From positions 1 through 64,000 of IMG/VR virus record IMGVR_UViG_3300048597_000133: DNA of 64,000 nt. One strand, written 5' to 3'. The notes under the pieces were generated by a model. It was given only the letters and a program-made list of their open reading frames with translations. It had not been told where the DNA came from and ran no database searches. This DNA is from a virus. This document shows, one piece after another, positions 3,922 to 38,611 of the stretch; the stretch's first letter is position 1; each line of letters starts with the position of its first letter. Made by a program: the position numbers and the translations under genes.

Positions 3922-5064
3922 ATGGCCGGTCAACCCAGAATCAAATTAGATGTTTTACCAGTATACCGAGGAATGGCTTCTTTATATTCAAGGGGTAATT
4001 CTTTGTCTGTAAGGCTACCAGATAAGTTAGGATTGGGACGTTATAAATTTATATCTTTAGGGTTACCAGCTAACGCAGAAGGAATAGGGCGGGCCATACA
4101 GATAGTCAACGACCTAAACAGAGATATAATCTACGACCGTTTTGATTTCACGCTAGAAAAATATTTACCTACCGCAGCTATAACAGAGCCACCAATTGAC
4201 TTATACGAATTGTGGTGTAAATATTGTGATTATAAGGAGGGTAAAGTTAGAGAGTCTACTCTAGAGTATCTACGCGTCACAATAGGCAGTAAGATACGCC
4301 TAATTCCTATACTTGACATAACTAAATCTGCAGCTATAAGTAAATGGGTAATATCTCATAATACAAAGGATTACGGCATTAGAGTATTAGCTAAAATTTC
4401 TGCTTTATACGAGTGGTCTATTCTCCATGAGTTGATTAACTCTAAAGAGGCTTTAAATCCATATAAAGGACATTTAGATAAAGCACGGAGCAATGTTATT
4501 GATATAGACGAAGAGCCCGACGAAGCCCGCCCACTATCTGACAGTGAGGTTAACAGCCTTATTACTGGGATAAGGCCTGTATTCCGTAACTTCGTAAAGT
4601 ATTGCTTTTTAACCGGATGTCGCCCTTCAGAAGGGATTGGTCTAGAATGGCGTGATGTAAGAGAAGACCATCTTTTTCTGGGTCGCACTTTACGGTGTAA
4701 GAACGGTAAAGTCTTTATGTCGCCTAAGAGTAAGAATAACCGTAACTGGCTATTTCCTAAAACAGAAGAGTTAGCTGACTTATTAGATAAAACTCCTAAG
4801 TTAAGTGACCAATGGGTATTCGCTCAAGATAAACCTAAAATCCAATATTTGTCTTATGACTCTTACTATAAAAACTGGAAAAAGATAATGCCAGAAGAGA
4901 CTAGTCCTTATAACACTAGAGATACATTTATTAGCCGGCAGATTTCATTAGGAATGCCGCCGGCGGTCGTAGCCAAGTGGGTTGATAACTCAGTCAGAGT
5001 TATAGAAAAGCACTACCTAAAAATAGGTCTAGATGTAGTACCCTACTCATTACCAGCTTTATAG
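3922..5064 (+). CDS. int: Tyrosine recombinase / phage integrase
   Basis: Site-specific recombinase that would insert or excise the element at a tRNA gene. The 380-residue length is typical. Catalytic positions visible are R234 (TGCRPSEG), K269 (MSPKSKN), an altered H-x-x-R box reading Y330-N-T-R333, W353 and nucleophile Y365 (EKHYLK). Replacement of the first His by Tyr is seen in one integrase group and does not by itself mean inactivity. The gene follows the half tRNA-Val by about 70 bases, as expected for int beside attP. It converges with and overlaps the minus-strand gene ending at 5043 by 22 bases. Confidence 0.9.
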   Translation: MAGQPRIKLDVLPVYRGMASLYSRGNSLSVRLPDKLGLGRYKFISLGLPANAEGIGRAIQIVNDLNRDIIYDRFDFTLEKYLPTAAITEPPIDLYELWCKYCDYKEGKVRESTLEYLRVTIGSKIRLIPILDITKSAAISKWVISHNTKDYGIRVLAKISALYEWSILHELINSKEALNPYKGHLDKARSNVIDIDEEPDEARPLSDSEVNSLITGIRPVFRNFVKYCFLTGCRPSEGIGLEWRDVREDHLFLGRTLRCKNGKVFMSPKSKNNRNWLFPKTEELADLLDKTPKLSDQWVFAQDKPKIQYLSYDSYYKNWKKIMPEETSPYNTRDTFISRQISLGMPPAVVAKWVDNSVRVIEKHYLKIGLDVVPYSLPAL

Positions 5065-5774
5065 ACAGTAGGTCTAGTAGGAAACTTAGGGAAAGACAAC
5101 GGAGGATTAGACTGAGAATCGGCTTCTTTCTTCTTAGGGGTGAACTTATAAGTAAAGCGACCAGACTTAACAGCCAACCGTTCTTGTTCTAGCTTCTGTA
5201 AGGCCGCCCTGGCAGCGTCCTTCCATAAATGTCGGTCAGCACGACTGGGGCTAACACGCAAGTCTAATAGCCGCGCCTTGTCCCCTTCTTTCATGTTGGA
5301 TAAGTACTGACTGTAGATGTGGTCGTTATATTCATAACTGGTAGTATCTGAGAGCCCGAACTTATCTTGGTCTAAATCAGCTTTGACCCTGTTGTAGATA
5401 TAGTCAGATATTTCTAACAGCTCACTGCGAGACCCGAATTTAAGTTCTGCTCCGGTAACCAATGGGTGCGGCACAGAGCCTCTTTTAACAATGCTATCTT
5501 TCTCTACCGGTACAGAGGGTGTGGGACTAACCTCAACGATGTTATTGAGCACTTCTGCTAAGACGTTGAGGGATTTGTAGTCTTCAGAGTTTACGGAGTC
5601 TACAGCTAATTCCTTAAGGCAGGTTAGGAGTTTGGTCTGGCACGTCTGAGACAGACTCTCTAGTAGCGTGCTCAAAGTAGGATCGAATGAGGACTTGTGC
5701 ATAACGGTTATTAAGTAAAGATTGCGTAAGTTTAACTTTTTGGTCTGGCAGTCCAAGGCAGAGGATTTGCCCAA
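5043..5774 (-). CDS. Unknown protein, last gene of the nrd operon
   Basis: I do not recognise this protein. From the TTG start at 5774 it is 243 residues; an ATG at 5702 would give 219. The TTG start overlaps the upstream gene by 161 bases and is preceded by a weak AGGT, so the shorter form is at least as plausible. The C-terminal half is charged and helical, with a lysine-rich stretch (KFTPKKKEAD) near the end. It is the last gene of a run that starts at nrdB and it meets the integrase tail to tail. Confidence 0.6.
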   Translation of the reverse strand: MGKSSALDCQTKKLNLRNLYLITVMHKSSFDPTLSTLLESLSQTCQTKLLTCLKELAVDSVNSEDYKSLNVLAEVLNNIVEVSPTPSVPVEKDSIVKRGSVPHPLVTGAELKFGSRSELLEISDYIYNRVKADLDQDKFGLSDTTSYEYNDHIYSQYLSNMKEGDKARLLDLRVSPSRADRHLWKDAARAALQKLEQERLAVKSGRFTYKFTPKKKEADSQSNPPLSFPKFPTRPTVYKAGNE

Positions 5775-5991
5775 ATGGCGGCGTACCTGATATGGCTGCG
5801 ATCAGACCTTTCTCGCCACCGTCTTTATATAGTTCAATGACTTGACCAACATAAGGACTTTCTAGGTTTAGCCAATCATAAAACCTTGGCGCGGTTTCAT
5901 ATCGACGACGAAGGGACACAGCGTATGTACCGCTATGCATCCTTTTAATGTTCTGTTTAGTTCTCGGAGTAGAGGTTAGGTTTAAAACCAT
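5614..5991 (-). CDS. Unknown 125-residue protein
   Basis: No family recognised. The first 40 residues are very basic (SLRRRYE, TPRTKQ), followed by a compact part with DWLNLESPYVGQV that could be a small beta-rich domain. It starts just below the 6007 gene and overlaps its downstream neighbour in another frame. The overlap is 89 bases if that neighbour starts at 5702. Confidence 0.6.
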   Translation of the reverse strand: MVLNLTSTPRTKQNIKRMHSGTYAVSLRRRYETAPRFYDWLNLESPYVGQVIELYKDGGEKGLIAAISGTPPFGQILCLGLPDQKVKLTQSLLNNRYAQVLIRSYFEHATRESVSDVPDQTPNLP

Positions 5992-6006: not shown

Positions 6007-6573
6007 CTAGGGGATGTTAACGCTTAATACATGACCGGTTGAGCTTACTATTATTCCAGTCGCCTCAAACTCTTCTACTGCTTCTAAGAGTCTATTGTCC
6101 AGACCTAGACTTATGTCTAATAAGGCTATGTACGGGTAATGGAAATTTAGGTTAGCGCCGCCGGCCAACATTGCAGTCATGTAGATAGCTTCATATTCAG
6201 ACAGCCCCCACATGATGTAGAGGCCGACTATTAGGCTATGACTTAAGACCTGATAATTCAACTGATAGACAAATCTTACTAAGTCACATTCGAGCAGTAA
6301 TTTGTTATGGGCCTTATATATAGCTCCTATGCAGTCGAATGCTTCTGTGAAGTAATCTATCTGGTCAAATTCGTTGTCTAGCTCATATAGGGGGTCTATG
6401 ACTGGGTCATGGACTAACCCAATAGTGACACTAGGTGTAGTTTCATCTTCAATGGGCGGCGGCGCCCGGTCAAACCCCCCTACATAAATCAAGCCATCTG
6501 AAGGTTTAATCGCTGTAGAAAGGTTTGACCATTGAAAACTAGTCAGTAACTCTAACCTTGGCAGGCTAGACAT
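6007..6573 (-). CDS. Unknown acidic protein downstream of nrdA
   Basis: A 188-residue acidic protein with no motif I can name. The middle is rich in hydrophobic and aromatic residues (SHSLIVGLYIMWG), but I do not see a clear transmembrane signal. Its start overlaps the end of nrdA by 22 bases, so it is translationally linked to the reductase. Confidence 0.65.
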   Translation of the reverse strand: MSSLPRLELLTSFQWSNLSTAIKPSDGLIYVGGFDRAPPPIEDETTPSVTIGLVHDPVIDPLYELDNEFDQIDYFTEAFDCIGAIYKAHNKLLLECDLVRFVYQLNYQVLSHSLIVGLYIMWGLSEYEAIYMTAMLAGGANLNFHYPYIALLDISLGLDNRLLEAVEEFEATGIIVSSTGHVLSVNIP

Positions 6574-8813
6574 TCGCCTCCTCCATCTTCTGAATGATAA
6601 CTTTGGGTAACAACTTTACGTTCTAGTTCTTGTTGACGTTTAGCCGCTAATTGTCCAGACCGCCCTTCAGCATTCTGAATAGCTTGTGACCGACAATAAT
6701 ACAACGTCTTTAGACCTAAGCGCCAGGCTTCATAGTGAACTTTAGCAAAGTAGGTAGGGTCAGGCTCCGCAGTAAAGAATAGATTTACCGACTGAGACTG
6801 ACCTTGACGATGGCGGTCCATTTCTATTTGGCGCTCGGCAGCTTGCTTGATAATAGCCATCTGGTTAATCTCACGGGCAGTTAAGAATACCTCACGCTCT
6901 AACTCAGATAAGAAATTTAAGTGCTGTACACTACCACGAGCTTCTGTAATAGAATCCCAAGTCTCTTCATCATCACGACCATACTCAGCTAATACTTTCT
7001 GTAAGGTGGGATTATGGAAGAACATGGAGCCACGGCTAGTCTTCTTCTCAAAACTATTAGCAGCAAATGGCTCAATACCAGCACTGACATGACCACAGAT
7101 AATACTGTTAGTGACCGTAGGAGCACAAGTTATGGTGTGAGTATTATGGACACCGGTGCCTTGACACCATTCTGGTTCACCATACTCTTTAGCCATATCT
7201 ACGCTAGCTTTGTGAGACTCATCGGCTAAATGACGGAAGACAGCTCTATTTAGCAAGCTTGCTCCGAATGATTCGAAAGGAAGCTTACGTTCTTGTAATA
7301 AGGAATGCCAACCCATGGCCCCTAAGCCGAGCATACGACTTTTAACAGCAAAGCGATAAGCATTATCAAAGAAGGGTTCCCCTTGAATCTTATCAATGTA
7401 TTCTTGCATGACACCATCTAGGAACCAGGTAGCCCAATATACAGCGTCCGTCTCGCGCCATTCTTCCCACTTAGCTAAGTTCATAGAACTCAAACAGCAG
7501 ACGAAGGTATGACTTGGGTCAGTGTACGCGGTTATCTCGGAACAGTTGCCGGTCATTCTACCGTCCGCTAAAGCGAACATCTTTGTAGTAGGCACGGAAG
7601 TGCAATAGACCGGCACCGGTTCTTCTAGATAAACCCTGGTTACTTGTTTGATTAAGCCGGTGGCTTTATTCTTATGGGTTAATACTTCTAGCAGTGCCGA
7701 GTTAGGACGTGCATAGTGGTCATATAATTCCCGAGCTGTGATGAATTTGGTTTTTTGTGTGCCGACGACACCAAACTCTTGGACGGGTACCCTGTGTTCT
7801 GGTGTAACGTCTATGCTGGTGTCGTCGTTATAGATGATTCTTATAAAGCGGTCATATATCCCTTTCTGTTCAAAGGAGCTATTTGATACCCAGTCTTTAC
7901 CATCCCAGATACTTACTGTCTTACCAACTAAGTCTTTAATGGGGACGGCGCCGTCTTTAGTCCTTACTAACTCTTCACCCTTTAAGCATATATTAGAGGT
8001 CTTTACCTTAAGTCCCAAACGTTCGTAGCCTAGAGGATTAGTCCGATTAACGTTGTCAGTGAAGAATAAGTAAGGTTCGCCGGTTTCAATCCTAGCTCGT
8101 AATATCTGACCAAATAATTCTCGTGCTTCGCCGCCGGCTGATATGGCTTCCATATCTTCATCGGTTAAACATACAGCATGGTGTATATTCATACAGCGCT
8201 GGTTTTCATCTCCAGTAGGGCGGCGCATATTAATGAATTCTTTGATGTCTGGATGACTAAAGGGGAGGTATGCTGCCGATGCGCCCTTTCTTACCCCGTT
8301 CTGGCTGACACCTACGGTAGTAGAATCTATAATCTTACACCAAGGGATAACACCCTCAGAAATATATCCACCACTAATAGAGGCTCCTCTGCCTCTTATA
8401 TCCCCCATATAAATGCCTACTCCAGCCCCTTTAGAACTTAGGTGGGCTAGCTCAGTAACACTGTGGAATATCCCACCAAGAGAATCTTGTACGTGTGTAC
8501 TATTGCACGAGATCGGGAAACCCCGTGTGGTACCAAGATTAGCGAGTACAGGGCTGGCTGGTCCGAGCCAGCCGAGCCACATAATCTTAAAGAACTTCTG
8601 GGCCAGTTCTGGTCGTTTAAGTGATCGGGCAGAGGCTTCAGCTAGTCGAACATAGGCATCCCAAGGAGACTCACCGTCTAATAAGTAGCCCGATTTGAGC
8701 ATGTAATAGCCCTCGGCGGTCATCCAGTCAGGCACTCCATTATCCGGTTTAGTAAAACCCTTGGTGGTCTGATATTTAATGTGGGCTTGAGGCAACTTAG
8801 GGAAGATAAACAT
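6552..8813 (-). CDS. nrdA: Ribonucleotide reductase large subunit with intein
   Basis: Catalytic alpha subunit of class I RNR, converting ribonucleotides to deoxyribonucleotides. The precursor has 753 residues; removing the intein at residues 276-423 leaves about 605. Family landmarks include PASPVLANLGT, the cysteine in FPISCNST, and the spliced joint SNI-CSEI, in which C424 corresponds to the thiyl-radical cysteine (C439 in E. coli NrdA). The C-terminus ends in a redox pair, ECLACQG. It follows nrdB in the same operon after a 72-base gap that holds a hairpin. A phage-encoded RNR usually supplies dNTPs when host pools limit replication. Confidence 0.93.
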   Translation of the reverse strand: MFIFPKLPQAHIKYQTTKGFTKPDNGVPDWMTAEGYYMLKSGYLLDGESPWDAYVRLAEASARSLKRPELAQKFFKIMWLGWLGPASPVLANLGTTRGFPISCNSTHVQDSLGGIFHSVTELAHLSSKGAGVGIYMGDIRGRGASISGGYISEGVIPWCKIIDSTTVGVSQNGVRKGASAAYLPFSHPDIKEFINMRRPTGDENQRCMNIHHAVCLTDEDMEAISAGGEARELFGQILRARIETGEPYLFFTDNVNRTNPLGYERLGLKVKTSNICLKGEELVRTKDGAVPIKDLVGKTVSIWDGKDWVSNSSFEQKGIYDRFIRIIYNDDTSIDVTPEHRVPVQEFGVVGTQKTKFITARELYDHYARPNSALLEVLTHKNKATGLIKQVTRVYLEEPVPVYCTSVPTTKMFALADGRMTGNCSEITAYTDPSHTFVCCLSSMNLAKWEEWRETDAVYWATWFLDGVMQEYIDKIQGEPFFDNAYRFAVKSRMLGLGAMGWHSLLQERKLPFESFGASLLNRAVFRHLADESHKASVDMAKEYGEPEWCQGTGVHNTHTITCAPTVTNSIICGHVSAGIEPFAANSFEKKTSRGSMFFHNPTLQKVLAEYGRDDEETWDSITEARGSVQHLNFLSELEREVFLTAREINQMAIIKQAAERQIEMDRHRQGQSQSVNLFFTAEPDPTYFAKVHYEAWRLGLKTLYYCRSQAIQNAEGRSGQLAAKRQQELERKVVTQSYHSEDGGGECLACQG
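7545..7988 (-). other. Mini-intein in NrdA at the radical cysteine
   Basis: A 148-residue intein spans C276 (CLKGEELVRT) to N423 (RMTGN), with extein C424 as the +1 nucleophile. The block B signature is TPEH (337-340). The penultimate residue is Gly rather than the usual His. There is no room for an endonuclease domain, so it is a minimal intein. It is inserted immediately before the catalytic radical cysteine, so the enzyme is dead until splicing occurs. Confidence 0.93.
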
Positions 8814-8849
8814 TTGTCTTAGTCAGATGGAGTAGATAAATGGAGACAA

Positions 8850-8872
8850 GGCGGAGACATTACATCTCCGCC
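8850..8872. other. Intercistronic hairpin between nrdB and nrdA
   Basis: GGCGGAGA (8850-8857) pairs perfectly with TCTCCGCC (8865-8872) around a 7-base loop. It is the main content of the gap between nrdB and nrdA. On the minus strand the tail (TTGTCTCC) is not a real U-tract, so an RNA-processing or attenuating element is more likely than a full terminator. Confidence 0.6.
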
Positions 8873-8885
8873 AACGGATGACTAG

Positions 8886-11345
8886 TTATGCAAAGACGGC
8901 GTCCCAGTCAATAGCTTCAGTGTTAAATAACCCTTTAGCATAGTTAGAAACGTGAGCAGCAAAGAAATCAGTGCTGGCTTCGCCGCCGGTCATCAAATAA
9001 AACCAGCGTTCAATCTGCCGAGCTGCTTCTTTATCAACGTCAAAGATAGGCTCTAAACCTAGCTCTTCTAACTTTTGATTTGTACGCTGTTCGATGAACG
9101 ACTTAACGATGTGGGCGTTTAGCCCGGGCAACTCATGGTTATCAAAGACCATATCAATGAAGTTATATTCCAACTCCACTACAGTGCGCGCCGCATCGTA
9201 CAAGGTGTTGTTCAAGCGCTCATTGTTTAACGAGGGGAACTCTGAACGTAGTTGTCTAAATAGCCAGCACCCAGCATTACTGTGCATACAGTTGCCGGAT
9301 ATCATCACTGACTCTTTATACCTGGTGATCAAAGTCCCTTTATCCACAGTCGCGCAGTAGACATAACCTGAGTAGGTCTTAGTGTCTTTGGTGCCACACC
9401 TGGTATTCTTCCAAGCTTTGTTATCCCAAATCTTTAAACCATGACTATAACCACGAAGGGGATTAGGATAATATTCCGCTGCCCTACCAGATAAGACACA
9501 AAGAACTTGCACCATATCTGAAGCTTCTTTGTTGTTAGTGTAGAATACCTCACAAGTCCTATTAGCCGGTCTACCACGACGCCAGAATCGCAATTCCATA
9601 AGGAACTGGTCTATCCAACTTTGTGTGCAATGGGTCAACACTATCCATTTATAGCCAGCAGGCTTTAAATGACAGTCTTGTATTTTGGCTTGGAAATTGA
9701 CGCTATAAGGATTGTCCCTGACTACTGTGCAGATACCTTCTACTTCGTATAAAGCAGACACGAGCTTGTGCATCTCATCAATCTTGTGTTGTTCTCTCCT
9801 CTTAGAGAAAGTAACAGTGAGTGTATAAAGACCATCTTCATCAGGCATATCTACCCGACCACCAATGAACTCTGTGATTAAATAGAGTCGTTCAAGGGGT
9901 GTCATAGAAATCTTATTGCCTTGTAGCTTATACCCGGCAATAGGTATTTCATATTTGTTTTGTAAGTTAAGGTCGATAGCCTTAATTTTGTGGGTGCATT
10001 TTTTATTAAGATTGCGGACTACCATGTCATGGTCTTTGGTAACCCGACACTTGACAGCAGCTTTACGCTTTCCACCAAGCTCTACCATCACACCTGAGTA
10101 GCGCTTCTTAATGATTTGCTGTGGTCTTACATAGCTAATCTCTTGGGTTTCCATGTCGTATTGAGCCAAAAGACAATGCTGCGGCAGCGAATCAAACCGG
10201 ACCCAGCCTATATCAGTTAACACTTCGGTGTCTGGAGTATGACATTCATCACGCACGCTATAAGCAATCACCTCAGATACGCCTTTGAGCATGTTCTCTG
10301 ATGGTAGTTCCAAGTAGTTGCCTTTAAGACCGTACTTGTCTGTGATATCTTTGCCTCCAGCTCGGTCTAATTCTTTGATTAATCCCCGAGCAGAGAAGTA
10401 TAGTAGGACAGCAAAGTTTGCATAGAGGCTAACCCCTTCAGCAAAAGCAGAGTATACAGCTAGAGATACAGCTCTGTCTTCTAACGAGTCACTGCGGACA
10501 TTAATAAGATTTTCTATCTTGGCGGCTGCACTAGGTTCTCTTAAGAAGGCATCATGCTCTTCTAGGTTTAGTGTCTCATTCAGGTAGTTATAAGACTTGC
10601 TATGGATACTATTACCAGTGATAGTAATCTTACCGTTACGTCTGCACACTACAGTAGTATCTGGCATAGACACACAGTAGACGTATCCATTGTATTGCCG
10701 CTTAATGGGGCGCGGTAGGTGGCTAAACTCTATCAACTCATCTATTTGGATTGTAGTTAGTAGACTGCCAGTGTCAGTGCGCTCTAATAAATCCCCAGCT
10801 TTGATTTTATCTAAATCCCCGTTAGCTAAAATCACTAACATGTCATGGTTAGGTGTTACACATACATCAATGTGCTCACCTAAGAAATGGACCATGTCGC
10901 CCGTGTAACGACGCTTAATGACCTTCTCGGGCTCAGCATAACTAATAGTGCAGGTCTTCATATCCATCTGAGCTACCTTGTGTTCTTCTGTAATATCTGG
11001 GCAAGGTACCCAACCTTCAGTAGTCAATAGCTCAGTCTCAGCGTCGAAGCATTCCATACCTGCAAAGGTAAACGCCATCAGGCTAATTTCCGGCTTAGGA
11101 AACCACTGAGCCACCTTCTGTGCCCAGTAGTTACCGATATACAATTCCATCTGCGTAAAGCCGAGTAGCGTGCCGCTGATTATCTTTTTTTCCTCTTCGG
11201 TCAGCTTAGTCTCCCAATCATGCACAGAGCTTGTCATTACACACTGTGACCACAGCCAATGAGACTGTTGTTGCTTTACAAAGTACTCATGTGCCTCTGG
11301 GTATTCAAAAGGCTGATACGACTTTCTTGGTGTGATTAACGTCAT
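8886..11345 (-). CDS. nrdB: Ribonucleotide reductase small subunit with two inteins
   Basis: Beta subunit of class I RNR, which holds the diiron (or Mn/Fe) radical cofactor. The precursor is 819 residues; removing inteins at 99-245 and 368-685 leaves about 354, a normal NrdB size. Splicing rebuilds both metal motifs: E98-S-I-H248 and E367-C-M-H688. Y252, four residues after H248, matches the tyrosyl-radical position (HSKSY). E67, 31 residues before E98, fits the first ligand, which is Asp in E. coli. The gene starts the operon after a 215-base leader. Without protein splicing neither metal site exists. Confidence 0.93.
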   Translation of the reverse strand: MTLITPRKSYQPFEYPEAHEYFVKQQQSHWLWSQCVMTSSVHDWETKLTEEEKKIISGTLLGFTQMELYIGNYWAQKVAQWFPKPEISLMAFTFAGMECFDAETELLTTEGWVPCPDITEEHKVAQMDMKTCTISYAEPEKVIKRRYTGDMVHFLGEHIDVCVTPNHDMLVILANGDLDKIKAGDLLERTDTGSLLTTIQIDELIEFSHLPRPIKRQYNGYVYCVSMPDTTVVCRRNGKITITGNSIHSKSYNYLNETLNLEEHDAFLREPSAAAKIENLINVRSDSLEDRAVSLAVYSAFAEGVSLYANFAVLLYFSARGLIKELDRAGGKDITDKYGLKGNYLELPSENMLKGVSEVIAYSVRDECHTPDTEVLTDIGWVRFDSLPQHCLLAQYDMETQEISYVRPQQIIKKRYSGVMVELGGKRKAAVKCRVTKDHDMVVRNLNKKCTHKIKAIDLNLQNKYEIPIAGYKLQGNKISMTPLERLYLITEFIGGRVDMPDEDGLYTLTVTFSKRREQHKIDEMHKLVSALYEVEGICTVVRDNPYSVNFQAKIQDCHLKPAGYKWIVLTHCTQSWIDQFLMELRFWRRGRPANRTCEVFYTNNKEASDMVQVLCVLSGRAAEYYPNPLRGYSHGLKIWDNKAWKNTRCGTKDTKTYSGYVYCATVDKGTLITRYKESVMISGNCMHSNAGCWLFRQLRSEFPSLNNERLNNTLYDAARTVVELEYNFIDMVFDNHELPGLNAHIVKSFIEQRTNQKLEELGLEPIFDVDKEAARQIERWFYLMTGGEASTDFFAAHVSNYAKGLFNTEAIDWDAVFA
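9291..10244 (-). other. Large intein in NrdB second EXXH motif
   Basis: A 318-residue intein runs from C368 (CHTPDTEVLT) to N685 (VMISGN), with C686 as +1. Block B reads TKDHD (436-440). The middle holds a degenerate LAGLIDADG-like domain: LYLITEFIGGRVD stands where an active enzyme would have an acidic GDG-type motif, and FLMELRFWRRG may be the second. It therefore probably splices but no longer cuts DNA. Its N- and C-terminal parts clearly resemble the other NrdB intein (EISYVRP versus TISYAEP; YSGYVYC versus YNGYVYC). Confidence 0.9.
10611..11051 (-). other. Mini-intein in NrdB first EXXH motif
   Basis: A 147-residue intein runs from C99 (CFDAETELLT) to N245 (KITITGN), with Ser246 as +1. 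Block B is TPNHD (164-168). The penultimate residue is Gly. It sits directly after the ligand Glu98 and splits E-S-I-H. It lacks an endonuclease domain and is homologous to the larger intein in the second EXXH motif. Confidence 0.93.
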
Positions 11346-11560: not shown

Positions 11561-12295
11561 CTATTTGGTCTGGGAAAGTAGTTTATTTACTCCAGTATCC
11601 TTAAATCTAGCTAATATTAAAGCTTGTTTTTCAGGTAACTCTTGAAGTAGTATCTCTCTGACTATGTCTTTTACTTGTTGTAGCTCTTGCTGGGCGGTAT
11701 AACGAGCTTGGAAGCCTTCAACATTTTTAAGTAGTTGTCGGAGTTCAGCTATATACCGGACATGGTTCTCAGGGTCATTCTCTAGTTTAGCAAGCATTCT
11801 ATATATGAGGGTGCCCATCTCTTCCCAATGCCCTACAAAGTCCATAATGGACCTATTACGCTCCTTGACCTTTTCTAAAGGGGTCATCTGGTCATATAAG
11901 CGGCAGAACTTAGATATGGAACGCTCCGACAAAGAATAACGCTCTGCTATTTCCCTGTAACTCCGGCGCTCTATATTCCTCAGACGTATAATCTCCGACC
12001 CAATACCTAGGTTAGCTATAACGCCACGCACGGACGAGCTGTTCGTATCGGCCTCAGCATTCAGACTCTTTAGGATTTCCTCGCCATCTTCACTGTTGTT
12101 GAGCATGTTAAACAGCGATTCTGCCCTGGATTTGACTATGGACACCTCGGCTCTATACTCTAACCCTACGTGCTCATAGAGCTTATCTAAGTCTTTAACT
12201 ACCTTTTCGAACTGTTCGATAATAGCTAAAGCTCTTTGAGCTACAGCAACTGCTTGGTTATCTGGGGTAGCTGGGGCGCCGCTGGTTGTGTACAT
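11561..12295 (-). CDS. Helix-turn-helix protein
   Basis: A 244-residue, mostly helical protein. Residues about 103-136 (RRSYREIAERYSLSERSISK) form a convincing helix-turn-helix: conserved Y-R-E-I-A, a turn, then a recognition helix. Long flanking helices suggest dimerisation. This architecture occurs in phage regulators and in some small terminase subunits; with no large terminase nearby I favour a regulator. It starts an operon of replication and recombination genes reading away from nrdB. Confidence 0.65.
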   Translation of the reverse strand: MYTTSGAPATPDNQAVAVAQRALAIIEQFEKVVKDLDKLYEHVGLEYRAEVSIVKSRAESLFNMLNNSEDGEEILKSLNAEADTNSSSVRGVIANLGIGSEIIRLRNIERRSYREIAERYSLSERSISKFCRLYDQMTPLEKVKERNRSIMDFVGHWEEMGTLIYRMLAKLENDPENHVRYIAELRQLLKNVEGFQARYTAQQELQQVKDIVREILLQELPEKQALILARFKDTGVNKLLSQTK

Positions 12296-27870: not shown

Positions 27871-29310
27871 TTAGTCAATGTCCGGGGCAGGAGCAGTAAA
27901 AGCACTAAAGGAAGTAGTGGGTTTAACTACCTCTTCTTCTACAACTTCTACTTCTACTGGGGTATCCGCTTCCTCTTTATTTGGTTGTGGCATAGGACAC
28001 GCCTCTGAAGCACTAGTAGGTAATGCTTGAGGACTGCTGGTAGAGTCAACTGGGTTAACCTCACCATTAATCAAAGCTTCTTCGTACTGAAGACATTGTA
28101 AGGAGAGTTGTAACCAGTCGATAGGAGTCAAGCCTTCGCCGCGACTAATGACGTTTGGGTCAGTGACTGGACAGAATACTGGTAAGTGAGTAGCACCAAA
28201 TTCAGGCTTCTTAAGCTTAGCCAAATGAACCTCCGTAACTACCGGGAATACTGTATTGCCGAATAGAGCTAGTCGGCGGGGCTCACCAGTAACATTACGG
28301 GCGTTTAAGTAGTTACGGTAGTAATCACCCCAAGAGTAATATTGGGCTCCTTCCGGTAAGTAACATTGACGACCATTAGTAACAATGTCACGTTCATAGT
28401 CGCCGCTACCTAGAGACCTGTGTTGTACAGGACCCATACCAGCAATCTTAAGAATAAACGGAGCTTCACGCTGAGCGCTGAATCCAGTCGGATGGTAATA
28501 AGTTAGGTTAGCGTCCTTAACATCTACCCACTTGATGGTAGGCTTACCACCTTTAAGCACTGCAGAAGAGTCTAAGATACCTAATTGAAAGACACAGAAC
28601 TTTAAGTAACCCTCTAGTTTACACTTAGGGATTTCTGTATTCGGGTCTTGGAATTGGTCTAAAGTGCCTACATAGTGTTCGCCGGCAGCAACACATTCTG
28701 CACAAGTGCGGGTTTCAGAAGTCTTTACACCTTCTGGTGTGCCAACTGGAGGGCGGGAACCTTTAAGGGTCAACCAAGGGCGCTCAGCTAGCCAGCTATT
28801 GATGGTGTGAGGATTTTTCTTTGATTGGTTGATCTTATTGATAGGAATCTCTAACGGGTGGCTATCGGTAATAGTTGTGCCACTGTCTTGGTCGATCAAA
28901 GCCGTAGTCTGACAGAAGTTAGTGAATTTATCGCCCACTTTACCAGACATGCGAAAGCCATAGGCTACTTTAACTACTACACCCCGCAGAGCCACAAAGT
29001 GATGTTCTGGAATGGGGGAGACCTCATTAGGCTCTTCTACCCCTTCTTTAGCCAAACGTTCTTTATCCGCTTTGGTTAGTGGATAATTCCAGCTAAGTCG
29101 GTCAGAAGATCCAAACTTACCTTCCACATGTGCCTGCCAACGGCGGTCACCTGACCCAGAACCAAACCCCTCTTTAATAGCTAGTGAGTCATTAGACTGT
29201 TTAGCTTCTTCTACGAGTTTCTTAAAATCACTAAGGTCGATGGAGCCTAAGTCCTGAGGAGCTGTAGCTAAACCGACAGCAGACTGAGTGATACTGTTAC
29301 TTGTTTCCAT
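27871..29310 (-). CDS. Candidate ssDNA-binding protein with acidic tail
   Basis: 479 residues, no family recognised with certainty. A central beta-rich region contains a possible zinc site (CAECVAAGEHYV plus a later KCKLEGYLKFC). The last 90 residues are strongly acidic (EVEVVEEEVV) and end in FTAPAPDID, like the acidic C-terminal tip that SSB proteins use to bind partners. It lies just upstream of a helicase and close to the clamp-loader genes. SSB-like role is inference from the tail and context. Confidence 0.5.
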   Translation of the reverse strand: METSNSITQSAVGLATAPQDLGSIDLSDFKKLVEEAKQSNDSLAIKEGFGSGSGDRRWQAHVEGKFGSSDRLSWNYPLTKADKERLAKEGVEEPNEVSPIPEHHFVALRGVVVKVAYGFRMSGKVGDKFTNFCQTTALIDQDSGTTITDSHPLEIPINKINQSKKNPHTINSWLAERPWLTLKGSRPPVGTPEGVKTSETRTCAECVAAGEHYVGTLDQFQDPNTEIPKCKLEGYLKFCVFQLGILDSSAVLKGGKPTIKWVDVKDANLTYYHPTGFSAQREAPFILKIAGMGPVQHRSLGSGDYERDIVTNGRQCYLPEGAQYYSWGDYYRNYLNARNVTGEPRRLALFGNTVFPVVTEVHLAKLKKPEFGATHLPVFCPVTDPNVISRGEGLTPIDWLQLSLQCLQYEEALINGEVNPVDSTSSPQALPTSASEACPMPQPNKEEADTPVEVEVVEEEVVKPTTSFSAFTAPAPDID

Positions 29311-37195: not shown

Positions 37196-38611
37196 TTAGT
37201 CTGCTATTTGGTCTAAAGATACTTCAGTAGAACAACTAAGACATATGGAGAAGTCTTCAGAGTAGGGCACTGAATCTACAAACATAGTCCATAGCTCTTG
37301 CTCTTCTGAGTAAGACTGAGTCAGACACATTAAATGGTCGTTGTCTGTATTGTCTACTCCTCCGTTTAAATCATTATCAGTCCAAAGCATCAAGTCATCT
37401 GGGTCTTCTGGTAGCTCACTGCCCGCATCTTCATATAACTCATCCTCTGTTAACAGCTGACAAAATTTGTAGGTGGCTATAAGTGCACACATAAGATAGC
37501 TATGGTTGATGATTAAAGACCTCCAAGGGGTCTCTTCGCCTGTTAATTCGGCAAACAGAGCAAAGGACTTATCTTTCTCCATCAAGTCTGAAGACTTCGT
37601 TAATTCTAGATGGCTTTCAAGGCAGCGTAGTCTGACTCCTTCTGACTCGTTAGCCGAGCGCTTTTTCTGAATATTGGTTTTATGGATGAGTTGCTTGGCG
37701 GCGAATATCCGGCTACTCATATTAGTCAGCGGCATGTTGTTATTAAGGATAACAGGAGCATATTCACTGACAGCTCGACTTAAATATGCTTCGGTGGTGG
37801 GCAACAATAGCCAATCTTTACCAGACCATACTTGGACGTGCTTTTGGTCAGAAGTGATTCTAAAATTAAGGTCCCCATTAACCTGTAAATTAAGTATTCT
37901 TACTAGATGTCTGGCCGGGACACCAAAGCTTATCTTGTCTAATCCTTCGATGGTGCACTGGGCGTCTATACCTACTTTGATTAGGCTAATGCCGGTATCC
38001 GCGCCGCTATACTCAGAACCAAATACCTGTAATTTGCCTAAATCTTTGTTGTAGTAAAACCAGACGGACCGGTGACTTGTGTCATTAGCGTATTTGCTAA
38101 AGGTATTTAATATGGCAACCCGCCTCCGAAATGGAATTAAGTCTGGGATGTTAATGCATCCAGAGAGCCAGTCTGTAAAAGCAGGAGGCCGGAACTCATC
38201 AAAACTTCCCGTATATATGGGACTGGTAATGTGGTCTACCATTTCCGGGTCAGCACTGAGACTACAATCCGTAAGGCATTGAACCTCTATTTCATTACGT
38301 TTGGTGGCTCGTATCCTCATTGGATTACTAACCCATGGCTCTTCTTTTAATTGTTTAATATCAGAGCCGTCAATCAGGAACTGAGATTCGCCCACTATAC
38401 CGGAGCTGGGGATTACCTTAGACCCCCAAGTAGACCGCTTTAATAAGGCAGTCAGTCGACAATGAGACTCATCTATCTGGGCTAGTCTCATATAACGCAA
38501 GGCAGAGCCAGCGGGGCTGGCCTCTTCGTCTAAGTCCAGCAAAAATTTAACTGCCTGGACTAATTGAGCACCAGTGGCAAAGTCCAGGTAGTTCAGGTTA
38601 TTATTTTTCAT
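37196..38611 (-). CDS. Sliding-clamp-like protein (DnaN-like), tentative
   Basis: 471 residues. The region around RRRVAILNTFSKYANDTSHR, then LQVFGSEYSGADTGISLI and ISFGVPARHLVRIL, resembles the middle domain of a bacterial beta clamp: a helix, then strands with G-x-D/E-x-x-x, then the PARxL segment. The C-terminus is long, acidic and not clamp-like (EDAGSELPEDPDDLML). If correct it is the processivity factor for the polymerase at 40218. The call rests on local similarity only. Confidence 0.5.
   Translation of the reverse strand: MKNNNLNYLDFATGAQLVQAVKFLLDLDEEASPAGSALRYMRLAQIDESHCRLTALLKRSTWGSKVIPSSGIVGESQFLIDGSDIKQLKEEPWVSNPMRIRATKRNEIEVQCLTDCSLSADPEMVDHITSPIYTGSFDEFRPPAFTDWLSGCINIPDLIPFRRRVAILNTFSKYANDTSHRSVWFYYNKDLGKLQVFGSEYSGADTGISLIKVGIDAQCTIEGLDKISFGVPARHLVRILNLQVNGDLNFRITSDQKHVQVWSGKDWLLLPTTEAYLSRAVSEYAPVILNNNMPLTNMSSRIFAAKQLIHKTNIQKKRSANESEGVRLRCLESHLELTKSSDLMEKDKSFALFAELTGEETPWRSLIINHSYLMCALIATYKFCQLLTEDELYEDAGSELPEDPDDLMLWTDNDLNGGVDNTDNDHLMCLTQSYSEEQELWTMFVDSVPYSEDFSICLSCSTEVSLDQIAD

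Follow-up and report, generated by a model that had tools for sequence, protein, structure and literature searches.

Three inteins split the catalytic motifs of a phage ribonucleotide reductase

Results

Organization of the RNR operon

The DNA analyzed here, referred to as the window, is a 64,000-nt stretch of an IMG/VR virus record of 97,522 bases. Its minus strand carries a ribonucleotide reductase (RNR) operon in which nrdB lies upstream of nrdA, with 72 bases between the two genes (Table 1). Searches of the 97.5-kb record for a second RNR (NrdA/NrdJ, NrdB or NrdD) were empty, so that the expected absence of a second, intein-free RNR holds for this record. A second NrdA was likewise not found in the records of a close relative (205 kb) and of a third phage (212 kb). 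A glutaredoxin partner for the RNR was sought and not found.

A phage integrase family ORF is located near the operon, at 3922-5064 on the plus strand, and hints at a temperate phage. The ORFs flanking the operon are among those without any PHROGs match, all of which lie on the minus strand (6007-6573, 5043-5774, 5614-5991, 11561-12295, 27871-29310 and 37196-38611).

Table 1. Features of the RNR operon, with positions in the window and residues of the precursor proteins.
Feature	Position	Strand	Residues	Description
nrdA precursor ORF	6552..8813	-	753 aa	605 aa if spliced; no ATP cone
NrdA N-extein	7989..8813	-	1-275	ends ...KTSNI; C225-equivalent in PISCN
NrdA mini-intein	7545..7988	-	276-423	148 aa; Cys1...Gly-Asn; no homing endonuclease
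NrdA C-extein	6555..7544	-	424-753	CSEI (C439-equivalent), FVCCLSS (C462-equivalent), LYY, C-terminal CLACQG
nrdB precursor ORF	8886..11345	-	819 aa	354 aa if spliced
NrdB N-extein	11052..11345	-	1-98	last residue is the Glu of EXXH motif 1; contains Glu67 (first metal ligand) and Trp74
NrdB intein 1	10611..11051	-	99-245	mini-intein of 147 aa in motif 1 (E|SIH)
NrdB middle extein	10245..10610	-	246-367	SIHSKSY...VRDE
NrdB intein 2	9291..10244	-	368-685	318 aa; HINT and LAGLIDADG domains; inserted E|CMH, motif 2
LAGLIDADG endonuclease domain	9390..9968	-		part of NrdB intein 2; lacks both catalytic Asp (EFIGG and FWRRG instead)
NrdB C-extein	8889..9290	-	686-819	begins CMHSN

Anatomy of the three inteins

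A first-pass annotation of this DNA had placed three inteins within RNR active-site motifs, an assignment that is borne out by the junctions, profile matches, AlphaFold models and intein-free homologues. The sequence analysis confirms one intein in NrdA and two in NrdB, each splitting a catalytic motif. As expected of cis-splicing inteins, all three are in-frame insertions that are missing from homologues and leave the extein homology intact on both sides. Once they are taken out, the homology to approximately 40 intein-free relatives becomes continuous, and the computed lengths of the mature proteins are exactly those previously suggested, 605 residues for NrdA and 354 for NrdB. Each intein displays Cys at position 1 and a TxxH block (TPEH, TPNH and TKDH), and the C-terminal junctions read GN|C, GN|S and GN|C.

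The boundaries are KTSNI|CLKGEEL...GRMTGN|CSEIT in NrdA, AGME|CFDAETE...ITGN|SIHSKSY in NrdB intein 1 and VRDE|CHTPDTE...ISGN|CMHSN in NrdB intein 2. The junction MTGN|CSEI corroborates the earlier claim that the NrdA intein ends directly before the thiyl-radical cysteine, which constitutes its +1 residue, and each NrdB intein directly follows the Glu of an EXXH metal motif. For the roles of the NrdA and NrdB catalytic residues and the E. coli numbering, we follow established knowledge of class I RNRs. The spliced NrdA matches solved R1 structures across the catalytic core and contains the C225-, C439- and C462-equivalents, the YY pair and the C-terminal CxxC. The spliced NrdB matches solved R2 structures, and its residues E67, E98, H101, E156, E220 and H223 are all present.

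The NrdA intein and, within the precursor, NrdB intein 1 score above the cut-off of TIGR01445 (intein_Nterm). NrdB intein 2 itself has no match to a curated family; it aligns with intein 1 and about 20 other viral inteins, and its AlphaFold model (pLDDT 92, pTM 0.91) matches endonuclease-bearing inteins, including TliVMA, PI-PfuI and PI-SceI. The LAGLIDADG fold is recognizable in this intein, with Foldseek matches to PI-PfuI, PI-SceI and I-DmoI. The model of the NrdA intein (pLDDT 84, pTM 0.73) matches the Npu DnaE, Prp8 and Ssp DnaB inteins. A HINT fold is thus predicted from the two models, and from the sequence features in the case of NrdB intein 1.

The final residues of all three inteins are Gly-Asn, and the His that is usually penultimate is missing. 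The AceL NrdHF R2 intein, which also lacks this His, splices within minutes (PMC7891396). Class 3 inteins are characterized by a WCT triplet and by the lack of a nucleophile at position 1 (PMC7891396). Of the three class 3 signature residues, two can be recognized here, namely the Cys of block F and a Thr close to the C end. Assignment to class 3 was nevertheless rejected, on account of the presence of Cys1 and the lack of a Trp in block B in alignments read by eye.

Metal class of the NrdB subunit

NrdB contains a Glu as its first metal ligand (E67) and a Trp seven residues on (W74), the two residues that define NrdBi proteins (PMC6754362). The position four residues after Glu67 is occupied by Gly71; a Lys at this position marks only a subgroup, which holds all characterised class Id members (PMC6754362). 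No match to NrdI (PF07972) was found in the record, which may be incomplete, or in two related phages. Based on the NrdBi signature and the missing NrdI match, we infer that the metal site is probably dimanganese rather than di-iron, and the operon probably encodes a class I, class Id-like RNR. The previous description of the NrdB inteins as following a ligand glutamate and splitting both EXXH iron motifs is thus correct as to position, but the predicted metal is manganese.

Conservation of the insertion sites

Inteins show a known preference for conserved sites, which the first-pass annotation had also invoked. The insertion sites were ranked by local conservation among all positions with Cys, Ser or Thr at +1. 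When three residues on either side were considered, the NrdA site ranked 7th of 91, and the NrdB sites 5th and 1st of 42. The ranks were lower with five residues on either side (39th of 91 for NrdA; 14th and 4th of 42 for NrdB). The ranks are in line with the known preference, and conservation explains much of the choice of insertion site.

Loss of mobility and purifying selection

An endonuclease domain is absent from both mini-inteins, that of NrdA and NrdB intein 1. Full-length inteins that bear an endonuclease, in two other phage sequences (L016 and L121), can be aligned with the NrdA mini-intein, whose own endonuclease was therefore probably deleted. In NrdB intein 2, the LAGLIDADG motifs read EFIGG and FWRRG versus QADG and WDG in most relatives, with the consequent loss of the acidic residue that ends both motifs in active enzymes. 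The equivalent residues are also non-acidic in both motifs of intein 2 of the close relative. Because two of the inteins have no endonuclease and the third lacks both catalytic aspartates, none of them should be capable of homing.

The close relative, IMG/VR contig 3300048597_000634 (L013-L015), carries a single RNR, in which the same three positions are occupied by inteins. Between this contig and the window, the exteins are 90-100% identical and the inteins 60-72%, with synonymous sites near saturation. The pN values of the inteins range from 0.17 to 0.27, versus pS values of 0.73-0.84. In this comparison of two phages, the constraint extends to the dead endonuclease domain within NrdB intein 2 (pN 0.26, pS 0.83). 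These values are consistent with the vertical inheritance of all three inteins under selection to splice, and leave room for a structural role of the dead endonuclease domain.

Recurrence of inteins at the same sites

An intein fills the NrdA site, (S/T)N(I/L)|C, in 14 further sequences that were fetched, among them those of T5-like, ICP1, Ccr and CB7 phages. The R2 inteins that could be placed are inserted at E|XXH or two residues upstream (FAE|SEVRH) in motif 1, and at E|XXH or one residue later (EX|CH) in motif 2. The share of EXXH sites in this census is biased, as the search pattern was derived from inteins at these same sites; a set of R2 sequences collected through the exteins is unbiased but smaller. 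Clustering of R2 inteins and introns near the two metal-ligand regions has been described (PMC8772380).

All three sites are occupied, in the same registers, in contig 3300010885_025649 (L121/L180). A clade joining this contig with our phage and its close relative was rejected by AU tests for both subunits (p 2.6e-4 for NrdB and 3e-6 for NrdA), and with it the inheritance of the triple state as one RNR clade. The sister of our phage in both trees, L016/L017, has the NrdA intein and an intein-free NrdB. Because the triple state is found in a contig that is not a sister, triple occupancy was either assembled more than once or is ancestral and was repeatedly lost. The saturation of all three motifs had initially been regarded as striking; it is not unique, as two other phage contigs show it, one from the close relative and one unrelated by RNR phylogeny.

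Further inteins were also observed. In L012 (7656-10493), the NrdA intein lies directly before the C225-equivalent Cys (PIS|C...VHN|CFGI), and a second active-site cysteine of NrdA thus serves as +1 residue. The NrdF intein of Corynebacterium phage Darwin (L080, 1994-4150) occupies the same motif-1 site, and its first residue is Ala rather than Cys; its splicing may therefore follow a class 3-like path. A fourth intein of 128 aa is found in our record outside the window, in a family-A DNA polymerase-like ORF (88678-90438, minus strand), with the junctions ATGRLA|C...VSN|CRTPNLQ. About 26 codons beyond the intein the ORF comes to an end, indicating that the polymerase is truncated or continues elsewhere.

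Relationship between the two NrdB inteins

Most R2 inteins belong to a single group in which both motifs are mixed. In a careful tree of this group, the motif-2 intein of L112 is nested among motif-1 inteins with a support of 96/90. The tree supports switching between EXXH motifs within the group, which suggests a route for the spread of inteins within internally repeated protein folds. For L112 and its relatives, intein jumps between the two pseudo-symmetric EXXH motifs are suggested.

The two NrdB inteins of our phage could themselves be related by copying between the EXXH motifs of the gene. They share 41% identity over 92 aa (E about 1e-15) and the register E|XXH, and the empty-site DNAs of the two motifs have 17 of 30 central bases in common, which places them in the top 0.06% of in-gene pairs. 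The mixing of motifs in other phages, with the nested motif-2 intein, points in the same direction. However, the two inteins are not joined in the tree (support 44/49), and the similarity of intein 1 to inteins of other genes is about as high; many phage inteins are related in this way. Intragenic duplication was discarded because the inteins, albeit similar, are not resolved as sisters, and we consider such copying unlikely.

Discussion

Origin and maintenance of the inteins

It follows from the anatomy that a working enzyme requires three splicing events, as the first-pass annotation had pointed out. We favour the interpretation, with a probability of roughly 0.85, that once-selfish inteins became fixed at conserved RNR sites, and are now immobile and splice spontaneously. 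The inteins would have arrived as selfish LAGLIDADG elements homing into conserved DNA, an origin favoured because unrelated inteins recur at the same sites. Two of them would have ended as mini-inteins and the third with a catalytically dead endonuclease, and their persistence would be due to the fact that only precise loss is tolerated. Spontaneous post-translational splicing, presumably unregulated, would then give the 605-aa NrdA and the 354-aa NrdB. The anatomy, the exact sites, the dead endonuclease residues, the purifying selection and the recurrence are all read directly from the sequences compared. The purifying selection on the dead endonuclease domain goes beyond bare persistence and is not fully explained by this interpretation.

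The first-pass annotation had interpreted splicing as a checkpoint on the dNTP supply of the phage. Under this hypothesis, conditional splicing of at least one intein, dependent on metal, redox or dNTP state, times or limits phage dNTP synthesis. Each insertion indeed disables the enzyme until it is excised, and the three inteins are kept under purifying selection despite being endonuclease-dead or endonuclease-free; the need to splice, however, is by itself sufficient to predict such selection. Examples of conditional splicing exist among other inteins (PMC6195587, PMC7360933, PMC5790916), and the Aquifex R2 intein in EXXH motif 2 increased the metal loading of the mature protein (PMC8772380). 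By contrast, no regulatory feature was identified here, the NrdB of the close kin L016/L017 is intein-free, and the same sites are filled in other phages by unrelated, endonuclease-bearing inteins, as would be anticipated for homing hot spots. The checkpoint is thus not supported, and we regard it as decidedly unlikely.

Alternatively, the inteins might be kept to gate or aid manganese loading and RNR activation, with the dead endonuclease domain retained for this function. In such a mechanism, the R2 metal-ligand motifs and the R1 radical cysteine would be held apart until splicing takes place. The R2 produced from the intein-bearing Aquifex gene contained more iron and had twice the activity (PMC8772380), which makes a metal-loading role the most interesting alternative, albeit a highly improbable one. 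That the RNR is a decaying pseudogene with degenerate, non-splicing insertions, as the loss of the endonuclease catalytic residues and the degenerating intein-bearing nrdA of Campylobacter phages (PMC3653736) might suggest, is close to negligible given the open frames of 753 and 819 codons, the intact catalytic residues and the 90-100% conservation of the exteins despite a dS near saturation.

Fixation of selfish elements at conserved sites remains the preferred reading, and the case is a further instance of a known phenomenon that does not establish a control switch. It is a clean one, with all three hot spots of one enzyme filled at once, a state repeated at least once in a phylogenetically separate phage. 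This collection of inteins is suited to asking whether inteins at catalytic motifs are mere parasites of conserved sites or have been domesticated.

Comparison with known systems

The R2 intein of the Aquifex aeolicus class I RNR is also located within EXXH motif 2, and its splicing is likewise needed to join the Glu and the His (PMC8772380). It is positioned one residue later (EL|CH versus E|CMH here), bears a LAGLIDADG domain, and is the single intein of a cellular di-iron enzyme, whereas NrdB of our phage has two. Pectobacterium phage CB7 (PMC7344957; L081, L067) carries an NrdA intein at SNL|C and an NrdB intein at E|TIH, which correspond to the same two sites. An intron in its nrdB immediately precedes DEALH (motif 2), so that the same three hot spots are interrupted (PMC7344957). 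The third interruption is an intron in CB7 and an intein here, and the last residue of the CB7 NrdA intein is Gln. In PcCB7V, the intein is present in NrdB, and NrdA is intein-free.

The AceL NrdHF intein (PMC7891396; PDB code 6zgq) belongs to a phage R2 gene and is the nearest solved profile relative of NrdB intein 2. Both lack the penultimate His and share the block F Cys and the Thr near the C end. AceL NrdHF is a split class 3 intein with Ala1, whereas the inteins described here are contiguous and start with Cys1. The NrdA inteins of the T5-like phage SelmaRatti, ICP1, CcrColossus, Domovoi and eugene 12A10 occupy the same SN(I/L)|C site (TNL|C in SelmaRatti), with the thiyl-radical Cys as +1 residue, but are larger (about 300-341 aa versus 148 aa).

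Among the contigs with triple occupancy, the close relative 3300048597_000634 differs in the sequences of its inteins. In 3300010885_025649, the RNR of which is not sister to that of our phage, the inteins in NrdA and in NrdB motif 1 are of full length, and the acidic residues of their LAGLIDADG motifs are intact; only intein 2 appears endonuclease-dead.
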